This document shows, piece by piece, positions 7,497 through 53,352 of a stretch of 64,000 bases of DNA (position 1 is the first letter of the stretch; every line of letters begins with the position of its first letter). The position numbers were made by a program, and so were the translations under genes. The notes under the pieces are model-generated. The model did not search any database. It was given only the letters and a program-made list of their open reading frames with translations, and had not been told where the DNA came from. The DNA comes from Dorea sp. AM10-31. Its GTDB lineage: Bacteria; Bacillota; Clostridia; Lachnospirales; Lachnospiraceae. The stretch is from assembly GCF_003435815.1 (NCBI RefSeq), contig NZ_QTUV01000004.1, positions 62,001 through 126,000 of the forward strand. The letters are read 5' to 3'.

Positions 7497-7737
7497 GCTG
7501 TGACATGATAGCAAAGAAGCGCGAGGTTGCTGCCACAATGTGGCAGGTTTTCCGTGGAGCGAATGTCAAGTTAGGAAACTGGCGACAAGTCACTGTACGA
7601 ATCAAAACTGATTACTGCTTACCAACTGGTAAAAGGTATGAAACAACGTGTGAGTTTCTCACGACACACACGGGAGAGTGTACAGTCACCGCTTGTCGTA
7701 CTGAAGTTAAAAGTACGAAAAGGAGGCGACTTTTTTT
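7497..7737 (+). ncRNA. Structured 5' leader of rpsJ (S10-operon leader)
   Basis: About 240 untranslated bases with nested helices. A long-range stem joins GACAAG (7584-7589) and ACTGTAC (7592-7598) to GTACAGT (7680-7686) and CTTGTC (7692-7697). Smaller hairpins form at GCCAC/GTGGC, ACC/GGT, GTGAG/CTCAC and GTAC/GTAC (7698-7716). The rpsJ ribosome site AGGAGG (7721-7726) lies in a weak hairpin (AAAAG 7718-7722 with CTTTT 7730-7734). Leaders before the S10 operon are autoregulated by ribosomal protein L4 in several bacteria; that the same protein acts here is inference. Confidence 0.65.
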
Positions 7738-20641: not shown

Positions 20642-20872
20642 TTAAGGCGGCTGATAGACGACACACCAGGAGGTGTGTAGACTATTTGAAATATACAAGG
20701 AAACACCTGTAGCCGGTGACTATCCTCGTATATTGCTTCTAATGCCGGCTCGTCATTGCCGTTTTATGAAGCGGTGGCCGGAAAGGGTGTGGATACCGAC
20801 ACACCTGGGATTTCATTAAGAGAATCCCCTATTAAAGACAATGAAAACTAAGTAAAAAGAAAATGGAGGAAC
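20642..20872 (+). ncRNA. Structured leader between rpmJ and rpsM
   Basis: About 230 untranslated bases rich in helices. CACACC (20662-20667) pairs with GGTGTG (20672-20677); a second copy, GGTGTG (20786-20791) with CACACC (20800-20805), forms later. AATATAC (20690-20696) pairs with GTATATT (20728-20734) around an inner CACC/GGTG hairpin. GGGATT (20807-20812) pairs with AATCCC (20823-20828) before the rpsM ribosome site. Position before rpsM-rpsK-rpsD makes it a likely autoregulatory leader, with S4 the best candidate ligand by analogy with other alpha-operon leaders. Confidence 0.6.
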
Positions 20873-30851: not shown

Positions 30852-31433
30852 ATGCGCAAATATGAAGAAGAACACTATCAATATGATAAGATCAAAGACA
30901 AGATTTATCCATGGGTGAAAAATGAGCTGACAGATCAGCAGGCACTTAATGGTAAGAATTTCTCAGAGAAAGATACACCGGTGATTGGGTTTGCCGGAGA
31001 TCTGAAGATCATTTTTGTAATTAAGAGAGGCGAAGAAAGCTACGAAGTATTAAAAGATGCTATGCTCCCACCGGAGATCGCAGTGGAGGAGCTGTATCAC
31101 ACAGCATGCGAGAATCTGGTGCGTGACGTAGAATTTGTCATTGGAAATACATGGTACGGCGGATTTGGAATTATTGCGGATGGCGTACATGAGGCAAGTT
31201 CTGTGTGCTTTCGCCATATCTGGCAGGTGTGTGCTGACAAATTAAAAGACGATCTGGTTATCTATGTGCCGCACAAAGATACCGTAATCTTTGCACCGGC
31301 GAGCCAGCAGAAGGTTGTAGAGCAGCTTCGCGATCATGCAAAAGGAGCCTATGAAGCAGAAGGCGATAAGATCAGTCTGCAGCCGTATTTCTTTTCAAAA
31401 GAGAGAAAGGAACTGACAACCTATGAAAATTAA
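30852..31433 (+). CDS. YtpQ/DUF5688-like protein
   Basis: 193 residues, soluble and without signal peptide. The pattern of an N-terminal helical part, a V-I-G-F-A-G-D-L-K strand, a central helix with EIAVEELYHTACENL, and a strand-rich end (YVPHKDTVIFAP near 140) recalls the YtpQ/DUF1444 and DUF5688 groups of Firmicutes; none has a known activity. AAGGG is the ribosome site. It overlaps the next gene by 11 bases, so the two are translationally coupled. Family call moderate. Confidence 0.65.
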   Translation: MRKYEEEHYQYDKIKDKIYPWVKNELTDQQALNGKNFSEKDTPVIGFAGDLKIIFVIKRGEESYEVLKDAMLPPEIAVEELYHTACENLVRDVEFVIGNTWYGGFGIIADGVHEASSVCFRHIWQVCADKLKDDLVIYVPHKDTVIFAPASQQKVVEQLRDHAKGAYEAEGDKISLQPYFFSKERKELTTYEN

Positions 31434-32250
31434 GTGCAGGATTATCGGATTTGATCTGGATGGGACATTGCTGAACAGCGAGAAGCATATCGCAGAGCAT
31501 ACAAGAGAAGTACTGACAAGAGCAGTCGAACAGGGAATCTGGATTCTGCCGGTCACAGGAAGACCACTTGGCGGACTGCCAAAAGAAGTCGTAGAATTTC
31601 CGGGAGTCCAGTATGCGATTACAGCGAACGGCGCAAGGATCATGGAGACACAGACAGGTGGATGTCTCTATGAACGGCTTGTACCTGTGAAGACAGCTGA
31701 GCAGATCATGGAGATTTTCAGTGACTATGACGCACTGCGCGAAGTTTATTATGGTGGAAAAGGATATGCAGAAGCAGAAGAATTTTCCAGAGTCGGAGAA
31801 TATATGCGTTCTCCGCAGATGGCGGCATATGTACGTGCGACCAGAACACCGGTGCCGGATATTTTACAACTGATTCGTGAAAAAGGGCAGGACACAGACA
31901 AAGTACAGGGAGTATTTAAGATAGATGAAGAGCGGACAGAAGCACGTAAGCGTCTGGAAGCAGTAGAAGGTATCGAAGTGACCGGAGCACTTTCCAATAA
32001 TATAGAAGTAAATGCTGTCGGCGTAGATAAAGGCAACGCAATTTTGTGGTTTGCAGATCATCTGGGAATCCCGCATGAGGAAGTGGCCGGTTTCGGCGAT
32101 GGCAATAATGATATCCAGCTGCTTAAGAAAGCAGGGGTTGGAGTTGCAATGGCAAATGCGACCGATCAGGTAAAAGCAGTTTCCGATTATATTACCGGAA
32201 CGAACGACGAAGACGGTGTCGCAACATTTATTGAAAAATACATATTGTAA
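31423..32250 (+). CDS. Cof-type HAD-IIB phosphatase
   Basis: 275 residues. The nucleophile motif is GFDLDGTLLNSEKHI (D at residues 9 and 11), motif II is PVTGRPLGG, and motif IV is GFGDGNNDIQLLKKAGVGVA. A C2B-type cap of about 100 residues is inserted between motifs II and III. Such enzymes dephosphorylate sugar phosphates, flavin mononucleotide or pyridoxal phosphate; the substrate is not predictable here. Overlaps the preceding gene. Confidence 0.9.
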   Translation: MKIKCRIIGFDLDGTLLNSEKHIAEHTREVLTRAVEQGIWILPVTGRPLGGLPKEVVEFPGVQYAITANGARIMETQTGGCLYERLVPVKTAEQIMEIFSDYDALREVYYGGKGYAEAEEFSRVGEYMRSPQMAAYVRATRTPVPDILQLIREKGQDTDKVQGVFKIDEERTEARKRLEAVEGIEVTGALSNNIEVNAVGVDKGNAILWFADHLGIPHEEVAGFGDGNNDIQLLKKAGVGVAMANATDQVKAVSDYITGTNDEDGVATFIEKYIL

Positions 32251-32333: not shown

Positions 32334-33161
32334 ATGTTAGACGCATTAAAAGTTATTATTCTCGGAATTGTAGAAGGAATTACCGAGTGGCTTCCGGTCA
32401 GCAGTACCGGACATCTGATTCTGGTAGGTGATGTATTGTCACCGAATTTAAGTCATGATTTTATGGAAATGTTTAATGTCGTGATCCAGCTTGGAGCGAT
32501 TATGGCGGTCGTTGTATTATATTTCCACAAATTGAACCCATTTTCACCGAAGAAGACTCATAAGCAGAAATTGCTGACATGGCAGATGTGGATCAAAGTA
32601 GCCATTGCATGTGTACCGGCAGCAGTTGTTGGTATTTTGTTAAATGACTGGCTGGATTCTGTATTTTATAAACCACTTCCGGTTTCAATCATGCTGATCA
32701 TCTATGGTATTCTGTTTATTGTTGTTGAAAATCGTAATAAAAACAGAAAACCAGAGGTTACGAAGATTTCAGAACTGGATATCCGTATGTTGCTCTGGAT
32801 CGGTGCCTTCCAGATGCTTGCACTGATTCCGGGGACATCCAGATCCGGTGCAACAATCGTCGGAGCATTGCTAATCGGTGTGTCCAGAGAAGTGGCAGCA
32901 GAATTTACATTTTTCCTTGCAATTCCGGTTATGTTCGGAGCAAGTTTACTGAAGCTTGTCAAATTTGGATTTGCATTTACAGGAGCTGAGTTTGGCTATC
33001 TGATGCTCGGATGTATCGTATCCTTCGGACTGTCCATCGTAGCGATCAAGTTCTTAATGAATTATATTAAGAAAAATGACTTCAAAGTATTTGGATATTA
33101 CCGTATCATTCTCGGTGCAATCATCATAATTATGACGGTTGTAAAAGCATTTCTTGCATAA
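32334..33161 (+). CDS. uppP: Undecaprenyl-diphosphatase (BacA type)
   Basis: 275 residues, about eight membrane helices. Removes one phosphate from undecaprenyl diphosphate so that the lipid carrier for peptidoglycan and surface polysaccharide can be reused. The two active-site regions are present: EGITEWLPVSSTGHLILVGD (about 17-36) and IPGTSRSGATIVGALLIGVS (about 163-182). Start at ATG 32334 after AAAGGAAAG; an earlier in-frame ATG at 32280 gives a tail with no match. Confidence 0.96.
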   Translation: MLDALKVIILGIVEGITEWLPVSSTGHLILVGDVLSPNLSHDFMEMFNVVIQLGAIMAVVVLYFHKLNPFSPKKTHKQKLLTWQMWIKVAIACVPAAVVGILLNDWLDSVFYKPLPVSIMLIIYGILFIVVENRNKNRKPEVTKISELDIRMLLWIGAFQMLALIPGTSRSGATIVGALLIGVSREVAAEFTFFLAIPVMFGASLLKLVKFGFAFTGAEFGYLMLGCIVSFGLSIVAIKFLMNYIKKNDFKVFGYYRIILGAIIIIMTVVKAFLA

Positions 33162-33283: not shown

Positions 33284-34087
33284 ATGAAGTTCAAGAAGTT
33301 AGTAAGTGTTGTTTTAGTAGCTGCCTGTGTATTTTCACTTGCAGCATGCGGAAGTGACAAGAAAAGCGAAGACAAAAAAGTAGAAGTAACAAAAGCAGAA
33401 GATCTGAAAAATCTTACAATTGGTGTTCAGCAGGGAACAACCGGAGATCTGGAGAGTTCTAAGATCGTAAAGAAAGATACACAGATGAAACGTTATCCAA
33501 AGGGTGCAGCAGCAGTACAGGCTTTGGAATCTGGGAAATTAGACTGTGTTGTTATCGATGCTCAGCCGGCTAAGAAGTTTGTTGAGAAGAATGACAATCT
33601 GAAGATCATTGACGGTATCTTTGATGATGAGCAGTATGCAATCTGCGTGAAAAAAGGTAATTCCAAACTGTTAAAAGAAATGAATGCAGCATTAGAAGAA
33701 CTGAAAAAAGACGGAACAGTTGATAAGATCATCGGTAACTACATCGGTGATGATGCAGGTAAATATCAGTACAAAACTCCAGAAGGAACAGATACTTCCA
33801 AAGGAACACTTGTAATGGCAACAAATGCTGAGTTTGAACCATATGAATATCACGAAGGAGATGCTATTGTAGGTATCGATGTTGATATGTCACAGGCAAT
33901 CTGCGATAAGATGGGATACAAATTAAAAGTAGAAGATATGGAATTTGATTCTATTCTCCCGGCAGTTGCAGCAGGAAAAGCTGATTTCGGTGCAGCAGGT
34001 ATGACAGTAACAGATGAGAGAAAAGAAAATGCCGATTTCACAGATACATATGCTAACGCTTCACAGGTAGTGATCGTTAAGAAATAG
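33284..34087 (+). CDS. Circularly permuted amino-acid-binding lipoprotein
   Basis: 267 residues with a lipoprotein signal (lipobox LAAC, lipidated Cys at 21) and a solute-binding domain whose halves are swapped. Right after the linker comes what is normally the second half: AEDLKNLTIGVQQGTTGDLE (near 37-56), AVQALESGKLDCVVID, and the usual C-terminal MNAALEELKKDGTVDKIIGN. Only then follows what is normally the N-terminus: GTLVMATNAEFEPYEYHEGD (about 174-193), DSILPAVAAGKADF, and the hinge strand ASQVVIVKK, where the protein ends. It should bind a polar amino acid outside the membrane. Start at ATG 33284 after AGGAGG. First of a three-gene transporter operon. Confidence 0.9.
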   Translation: MKFKKLVSVVLVAACVFSLAACGSDKKSEDKKVEVTKAEDLKNLTIGVQQGTTGDLESSKIVKKDTQMKRYPKGAAAVQALESGKLDCVVIDAQPAKKFVEKNDNLKIIDGIFDDEQYAICVKKGNSKLLKEMNAALEELKKDGTVDKIIGNYIGDDAGKYQYKTPEGTDTSKGTLVMATNAEFEPYEYHEGDAIVGIDVDMSQAICDKMGYKLKVEDMEFDSILPAVAAGKADFGAAGMTVTDERKENADFTDTYANASQVVIVKK

Positions 34088-34095
34088 GAGTAATC

Positions 34096-34785
34096 ATGGC
34101 AGATTTTTCAGCAAAGTTTTATGCGAACTTTATAAAGGATGACCGTTGGCTCGGTCTTGTGAGCGGTCTCAAGGTGACAATTATTGTCACCTTAGAGGCT
34201 TTGCTTTTAGGTGTTATCATTGGTTTTATTGTAGCGATCATTCGTTCTTACCATGATAAGACAAACAAATTAAAGATATTAAATGCAATCTGTAAAGTGT
34301 ACCTGACAGTGATCCGTGGAACACCGACGATGATCCAGATCTTGATCATGTATCTGGTTGTGTTCGGCTCTTCTTCACTGGATTCCATTATCATCGGTGG
34401 TATTGCCTTTGGTATTAATTCCGGTGCATATGTTGCAGAGATTGTGCGTTCCGGTATTATGTCTATTCCAATCGGACAGACAGAAGCGGGACGAAGCCTG
34501 GGACTTAATTATGCACAGACAATGCGTCTGATCATTGTTCCGCAGGCATTTAAAAATGTGCTTCCGGCGCTGGTAAATGAGATGATCGTGCTGATCAAAG
34601 AGACAGCGATCATCGGTTATATCGGGGAGCAGGATTTGACAAAGGCGGCAATGATTATTCAGAGCCGTACATTCGATGCATTTATGCCTCTTCTGGCGGC
34701 AGCAGTCATTTATCTGGCACTTGTTATGCTGCTGACATTCTTTATGAATAAGCTGGAAAGGAGGTTGAGAAACAGTGAGCGATAA
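34096..34785 (+). CDS. Amino-acid ABC transporter permease
   Basis: 229 residues, five to six membrane spans, of the His/Glu/Gln/Arg/opine group. The N-terminal signature with [16 protein letters not shown] and the ABC-contact EAA loop ([20 protein letters not shown], about 133-152) are intact, as is [15 protein letters not shown]. It forms the membrane channel for the binding protein upstream, nine bases away, and overlaps the ATPase gene by 11 bases. Confidence 0.95.
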
Positions 34786-35518
34786 TAAGGATACAATGAT
34801 CCAGGTCAAAGACCTGCATAAATCATTTGGAAAAAATAATGTACTCAACGGTATCTCAACAGATATTAAAAAAGGTGAAGTGGTTGTAGTTATCGGACCA
34901 TCCGGTTCCGGTAAATCTACATTTCTCCGTTCTTTAAATCTTCTGGAGCAGCCAACAAGCGGTTCGATCATTTTTGACGGAGATGAGATTACAGATCCGA
35001 AGACCAATATCGACCTGCACAGACAGAAGATGGGAATGGTATTCCAGCATTTTAATCTGTTTCCACACAAGACGATCCGTGAAAATATTACGCTGGCTCC
35101 GGTCACACTGAAAAAAATGACAAAAGAAGAAGCTGATAAAAGAGCGGATGAGTTACTGGAACGAGTAGGACTTGCTGACAAAGCAAATGCTTACCCGGAG
35201 CAGTTATCCGGTGGACAGAAACAGCGAATTGCCATTGTAAGATCACTGGCGATGGATCCGGAAGTGATGCTTTTCGATGAACCGACTTCCGCACTTGATC
35301 CGGAGATGGTTGGAGAAGTTCTGGATCTCATGAAGCAGCTCGCGAGAGAAGGAATGACAATGGTCGTTGTCACACATGAGATGGGATTTGCCAGAGAAGT
35401 TGGAACACGAGTTGTGTTCATCGATGAAGGCAAGATTAAAGAACAGGCAGAACCGGAGGAATTTTTCAGTAATCCAAAAGATGAGAGACTGAAAGAATTT
35501 TTGAGTAAGATATTATAA
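34775..35518 (+). CDS. Amino-acid ABC transporter ATP-binding protein
   Basis: 247 residues. Walker [16 protein letters not shown] (about 41-55), Q-loop [11 protein letters not shown], signature [11 protein letters not shown] (about 147-157), Walker [15 protein letters not shown], and the switch His in [10 protein letters not shown]. GlnQ/PAAT type. Translation starts at GTG 34775 after AAGGAGG. It completes the operon. Confidence 0.96.
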
Positions 35519-53139: not shown

Positions 53140-53352
53140 GAATTCGTGAGATACCGTATGGATAAAGAACAGGGGCTAGGCTTTATCCGAAACGGAGCCG
53201 AAGGGGTAGGCAGAAACTCTCAGGTAAAAGGAATGGATTCGGACGACACTCTGGAGAACAATATTTTTAATTGTACCGAAGAAGTAAACTGGTAGTTATA
53301 TGGGGAAAAACGATCAGCAATCTTTCAGGTAAAAGGACAGAGGCAGACAAAA
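53140..53352 (+). ncRNA. Tandem glycine riboswitch
   Basis: Aptamer 1 shows GCCGAAGGGG and ACTCTCAGGTAAAAGGA with its closing stem (GAATTC at 53140-53145 with GGATTC). The characteristic linker GGACGACACTCTGGAGA joins it to aptamer 2, which shows ACCGAAGAAG and ATCTTTCAGGTAAAAGGACAG. These are the paired cores of the gcvT-type glycine riboswitch. It lies directly before glyA, with a terminator-like hairpin between. Confidence 0.92.

Follow-up and report, generated by a model that had tools for sequence, protein, structure and literature searches.

In a 64,000-nucleotide stretch of the genome of Dorea sp. AM10-31 (contig NZ_QTUV01000004.1, positions 62,001 to 126,000; hereafter the window), the open reading frame at 33284..34087 encodes a solute-binding lipoprotein that is very probably a polar-amino-acid binding protein in circularly permuted form, with its lipoprotein signal left unchanged. 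Its predicted fold is an ordinary two-lobed trap, and it likely feeds the permease and ATPase encoded downstream. The SBP_bac_3 profile PF00497 matches the protein at 121.9 bits (gathering score 26.4) in two stretches. The best of them, residues 176-267, corresponds to profile positions 1-92 of 132, so that the profile starts at residue 176 rather than at the mature N-terminus, which departs from the canonical segment order. The top PDB sequence match, 4zv1 (AncQR), aligns through residues 173-267 with AncQR 9-104 and through residues 36-155 with AncQR 110-232 (i-Evalues of 9.1e-22 and 3.6e-22, respectively). Against the canonical protein of locus L078, residues 1-27 align with 1-27 (85% identity), residues 29-158 with 132-258 (50%) and residues 164-267 with 29-132 (68%), showing that the permutation affects the mature part and spares the signal peptide.

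Two profiles, named D1N and D2C, were built from window residues 171-267 and 35-158, respectively, plus their matches, and both segments span their own profiles fully (positions 1-94 of D1N and 1-118 of D2C). D2C, the second part of a canonical protein, contains most of lobe 2, the second hinge crossing and the C-terminal helices of lobe 1. D1N begins with the N-terminal portion of lobe 1, continues through hinge strand 1 to the first strand of lobe 2 and now forms the free C-terminus. A preliminary description of this DNA had proposed that the two halves are swapped, with the second canonical stretch first (near residue 40) and the first beginning near residue 174. The PF00497, 4zv1 and L078 alignments agree with this order (D2C at 39-156, D1N at 173-267). 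The swap itself thus stands, but the halves are not the lobes, since D2C and D1N each mix parts of both. The claim of two complete halves and a short linker was likewise borne out: the profiles are covered end to end, and the linker has 16 residues (157-172), compared with 15-23 (median 17) across 59 stand-alone permuted proteins. Truncation is ruled out by the same end-to-end matches, and sequence order, predicted model and superposition agree on the circular permutation that had been proposed.

Predicted fold, anchor position and ligand

The preliminary description had suggested aligning the halves separately and predicting the fold. The AlphaFold model of the window protein (predicted local distance difference test, pLDDT, of 87.6) shows an ordinary two-lobed type II trap, and its segments superpose in swapped order, at 1.8-2.5 Å, on the arginine-binding protein of T. 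maritima (TmArgBP), to which the window protein is 39% identical. End-to-end Foldseek alignments of the model are poor (TM-scores of at most 0.47 by query length in the 50 matches listed), as expected of a permutant. The cut is predicted to lie in a lobe-2 loop just past hinge strand 1, with both lobe crossings retained. From this position, the prediction is that the lipid-anchored N-terminus leads into lobe 2 rather than lobe 1 and that the C-terminus lies where hinge strand 1 reaches lobe 2. That the protein ends at the hinge strand had been noticed before, and hinge strand 1 is the free C-terminus of the predicted model.

Residues R246, D92, F184 and G239 are invariant among 47 relatives, and F221 is at least 90% conserved. 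These residues align with what we take to be the ligand shell of GlnBP, a correspondence that points to a polar amino acid as the likely ligand. By analogy with the family, the lobes would close on the polar amino acid, the loaded permuted protein would dock on the permease dimer, and ATP hydrolysis would drive import, as in GlnPQ-type importers. The lipobox with Cys22, the permease (PF00528) and the ATPase (PF00005) are as normal as first described.

The permuted order is found in many genomes

A scan of GTDB species genomes yielded 12 loci. In ten of them (L001-L010), a single frame encodes the complete permuted protein; the other two (L011 and L012) have the canonical order. The ten proteins are 53-85% identical to the window protein in the best segment; three come from Blautia strains and one lies on a 3.5-Mb contig. 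Relatives of the window protein reach 81-85% identity over its whole length. The search for the same order elsewhere, proposed with the preliminary description, thus revealed a trait of many genomes and not one odd protein. An assembly error at position 33780, named there as what would overturn the reading, was not borne out, because the same order at ten other, independent genome loci excludes a local misassembly at this position. Metagenome proteins related to the window protein do include likely chimeras, but in view of these loci and of the full-length relatives, we regard an assembly error in this contig as having a negligible probability; for the order as such, it is refuted.

A protein search restricted to the linker region returned 125 proteins, and 104 of the 120 listed have the order D2C-D1N. 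Seven of the 120 listed have the order D1N-D2C-D1N. Among the candidate duplication intermediates, P0005 and P0018 (D1N-D2C-D1N) and P0104 and P0109 (D2C-D1N-D2C) have parts that match different relatives; they are likely assembly chimeras and were not used as evidence. P0005 (400 residues) has no full-span match among those listed from 397 genomes. In two further predicted proteins of 446 residues (P0113 and P0116), a permuted binding protein is fused with a MerR-type regulator, perhaps on chimeric contigs by analogy with the other hits.

With P0005 as a three-part query, a match at 1e-30 was found in 335 of the 397 genomes of the G001 family, where at most four candidates were scored per genome. 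The matches listed fall into two kinds, covering residues of about 163-400 (permuted) or ending near residue 290 (canonical). At least 67 genomes have the permuted kind and at least 78 the canonical kind, and none has both among the matches listed, compared with 13.2 expected (9e-8, with relatedness ignored). This mutual exclusion does not extend to the sample of 245 genomes of the G007 order: a permuted single-domain match is listed for 20 of them, and for three of those (G408, G433 and G643) a canonical match is listed as well. Among 299 phylum genomes, at least three have a permuted single-domain match, two of them also belonging to the family sample. Taken together, the counts indicate that the permuted order is concentrated in Lachnospiraceae and a second group of genomes. 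Dorea and relatives have another permuted form, whose cut lies at a different place in lobe 2 (cut B, as opposed to cut A of the window protein).

Three segment orders at the HAD-BacA address

The HAD hydrolase and BacA genes (Table 1) mark the chromosomal address of the operon. The 183 records contain 158 distinct binding-protein genes, and the comparison covered the 125 whose lipobox was recognised and whose address was known. Directly behind BacA lie 19 of the 158 genes: eight in the window order, eight canonical and three with the second cut. Over 21 residues, the signal peptides at this address are 61% identical within a topology (59 pairs) and 62% identical between topologies (112 pairs). 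For one topology, identity between signals at the BacA address and elsewhere falls to 31-32%, and among genes elsewhere it is 26-33%. Where the BacA proteins are less than 65% identical, the signals remain 55-56% identical regardless of topology (48 pairs), which makes host relatedness alone an unlikely cause. The control set, which is small and includes some doubtful open reading frames, consists of seven lipoprotein-like signals from other genes, whose identity to the window signal averages 29% with a maximum of 48%. By these identities, the signal peptide tracks the address and not the topology, while the body does not track the address.

The bodies of second-cut proteins are 42-45% identical to others at the address and 68% identical to their own kind elsewhere (2 and 3 rows), and here the body and the permease and ATPase appear to have arrived as a unit. 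First-cut bodies are 60% identical to canonical genes at the address and 62% identical to their own kind elsewhere; on these values, the first cut may have been made in place. We offer only as a tentative suggestion, more doubtful than not, that the HAD-BacA address is a topology-exchange site in Lachnospiraceae, at which three orders (canonical, cut A and cut B) of an amino-acid importer stand behind one conserved signal because the choice of anchored lobe is a selected, repeatedly changed property of the importer.

Fused, tandem and second-cut variants

Permuted binding domains also occur fused to permeases in open frames of 501-597 residues, for example as the single domains of L055-L071. 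Their hinge strand is separated from the permease by 12-16 residues in 20 proteins, and the corresponding spacing between binding domain and permease in four canonical fusions is 23-39 residues. Tandem arrangements exist for both orders: a 1224-residue frame (L140, 617-4291, +) has four permuted domains followed by a permease domain, a 973-residue frame (L054, 2410-5331, -) has three canonical domains fused to a permease, and L141 is a canonical tandem of two domains. In one operon (L072, 2924-3724 and 3869-4687, +), two permuted binding-protein genes are adjacent. At L092 (2771-3673, +) and L093 (2392-3988, +), the latter a shorter fusion, the matches are split over two open frames and the genes are apparently broken. 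The ATPase beside the second-cut proteins of L086-L090 and L138 matches its profile in two pieces, as if with an insertion. The lipobox pattern is present in 55 of 59 stand-alone permuted proteins, 31 of 32 canonical proteins, 14 of 20 permuted fusions and all five second-cut proteins.

Phylogeny and alternative explanations

The 52 rows of the main permuted group, both stand-alone and fused, make up one side of a branch in the binding-protein tree. This branch has a value of 89 in the Shimodaira-Hasegawa-like approximate likelihood-ratio test (SH-aLRT), not starred, and joining L073 to this group raises the likelihood by 31.8. The tree tests left out L021, L137, L140, L011, L012 and the first genes of L067 and L036, as long branches or near copies. 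Holding together the main and divergent cut-A rows (58 rows) was not rejected by the approximately unbiased test (p-AU 0.355), nor was holding together all 64 permuted rows of both cuts (p-AU 0.525). A single origin, after which the cut moved, is possible. Several independent origins of cut A were considered, as a quick first tree scattered the divergent permuted rows, but this was set aside when the 64-row constraint was not rejected. The permuted protein would likely have arisen when the mature part was copied in tandem and in frame and the outer segments were later lost, while the signal peptide kept its position. Fusion to the permease would have followed in some relatives, and another line has its cut deeper in lobe 2.

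Several observations weigh against our interpretation as a permuted, lipid-anchored importer component. The window protein reaches no curated NCBIfam cut-off. The lobe assignment is based on superposition with isolated TmArgBP domains, and canonical proteins also superpose on the model in sequence order, over about 160-170 residues at 3.3-3.7 Å with 10-19% identity; such a fit arises since the two lobes are alike, which makes structure alone weaker than sequence and structure together. Four of the 59 stand-alone permuted proteins (L006, L007 and L008 from Blautia, and L050) lack the lipobox cysteine and have a signal resembling the signal peptidase I type, so that not every member of the group would have lobe 2 anchored by a lipid. 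The linker-search proteins and the 397 family genomes yielded no credible duplication intermediate. Permuted and canonical operons are intermingled in the permease and ATPase tree, which weakly rejects a single clade for the main permuted group (p-AU 0.042).

The same order could also be produced by the fusion of segments from two different binding proteins. The similarity of the segments to canonical proteins is indeed unequal (up to 73% for D1N and up to 56% for D2C), and their best canonical matches differ. Nevertheless, the segments adjoin without a gap on a single canonical protein (29-132 and 132-258 of L078), the orders in which they rank canonical relatives are correlated (rho 0.51, p 0.003), and both are far from outgroup proteins, leaving such a fusion improbable. 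A degenerate, non-functional product is more improbable still, given the intact frame and operon and the positions conserved across the 47 relatives, which include the presumed GlnBP contacts. Between the window gene and L001, nonsynonymous divergence (dN 0.069) is far below synonymous divergence (dS 0.80; 241 codons), and this comparison indicates that the gene is under purifying selection.

The chances are close to even, and slightly below, that the permutation is real and the protein works while its new order is neutral, having arisen once by chance with no effect on anchoring, hinge motion or docking. As described above, a single origin for all permuted rows was not rejected; canonical and permuted forms retain equivalent neighbours and signals; and the four proteins without the lipobox have none to move. 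On the other hand, the several cut sites are all seen in lobe 2, which suggests that the position of the ends may matter, though lobe-1 cuts could have been missed because the searches began from the window protein. The fusions in which the hinge strand enters the permease within 12-16 residues point in the same direction.

Relation to known binding proteins

The window protein shares with canonical SBP_bac_3 proteins (TmArgBP, GlnBP and the substrate-binding domains of GlnPQ) the PF00497 family, the fold of each segment, the lipobox and the adjoining permease and ATPase. It differs from them in the swapped order, the new linker, the predicted lobe-2 anchor and the C-terminus at the lobe-2 end of hinge strand 1. 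As in GlnPQ-type importers, permuted domains also occur ahead of a fused permease, singly (L055-L071) or in four copies (L140); in contrast, canonical fusions join through the C-terminal helix of lobe 1 and permuted fusions through the hinge strand. Glycine betaine binders including OpuAC are of type II and related among themselves by circular permutation, according to PMC2395249, and the window protein has a permuted type II topology in common with them. However, it is 16% identical to OpuAC and belongs to a different sequence family and ligand class. OpuAC-type proteins hold the quaternary ammonium group in a tryptophan cage, as described in PMC9732360, whereas the window protein has no tryptophan.

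The glucose-binding lipoprotein TpMglB-2 of Treponema pallidum is circularly permuted ('Cluster Bc'), and its authors raised the topology as a possible adaptation to membrane anchoring (PMC4990184). Like the window protein, it is a natural permutation in a lipid-anchored binding protein; unlike it, TpMglB-2 has a type I (cluster B) fold, a sugar ligand and another cut that adds a fourth hinge crossing. The window protein is not a cluster B (type I) sugar binder but a member of the type II amino acid family by PF00497 and its identity to TmArgBP, and a Pfam search of it gave no type I family at E ≤ 0.001.

Natural permutants of binding proteins are thus already known, to our knowledge described from a few structures. 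What appears to be new is the permuted amino acid family and, chiefly, the alternative topologies at one address. Searches of the open-licence PMC literature gave no report of a permuted SBP_bac_3 protein, although this absence is weak evidence. In related species, permuted and canonical relatives stand behind the same genes, most of them with a lipobox and with identities of up to 73% in one segment. They constitute a natural experiment on the anchored lobe, the hinge and the permease link in amino acid importers, usually approached with engineered permutants. Where such proteins are named, the names are of the type 'transporter substrate-binding domain-containing protein' and 'polar amino acid transport system substrate-binding protein', under which the topology passes unnoticed, also in common gut Blautia and Dorea.

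Features of the operon and the window

Table 1 Features of the permuted binding-protein operon and its upstream neighbours (window coordinates).
Feature	Coordinates	Strand	Evidence
Open reading frame (ORF), SBP_bac_3 lipoprotein, 267 residues	33284..34087	+	ORF translation
Signal peptide and lipobox Cys22 (LAAC), usual place, unpermuted	33284..33349	+	Translation; residues 1-27 85% identical to L078 1-27
First segment, D2C, residues 39-156	33398..33751	+	Hidden Markov model (HMM) positions 1-118; residues 32-156 = TmArgBP 125-247, 1.8 Å
Linker, residues 157-172, old C-terminus to old N-terminus	33752..33799	+	Stretch between the two HMM matches
Second segment, D1N, residues 173-267	33800..34084	+	HMM positions 1-94; residues 171-262 = TmArgBP domain 1 residues 6-98, 2.5 Å
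Permease (PF00528), start 8 bp past binding-protein stop	34096..34785	+	ORF, Pfam
ATPase (PF00005), listed GTG start, 11 bp overlap with permease	34775..35518	+	ORF, Pfam
HAD hydrolase gene (PF08282), address marker	31423..32250	+	ORF, Pfam
BacA gene (PF02673), address marker	32334..33161	+	ORF, Pfam

An Rfam scan of the window gave no match in the operon. Its matches lie elsewhere on the + strand and comprise an S10-Clostridia leader (7506-7588), an S4-Clostridia leader (20781-20836) and a glycine riboswitch aptamer (53241-53350).
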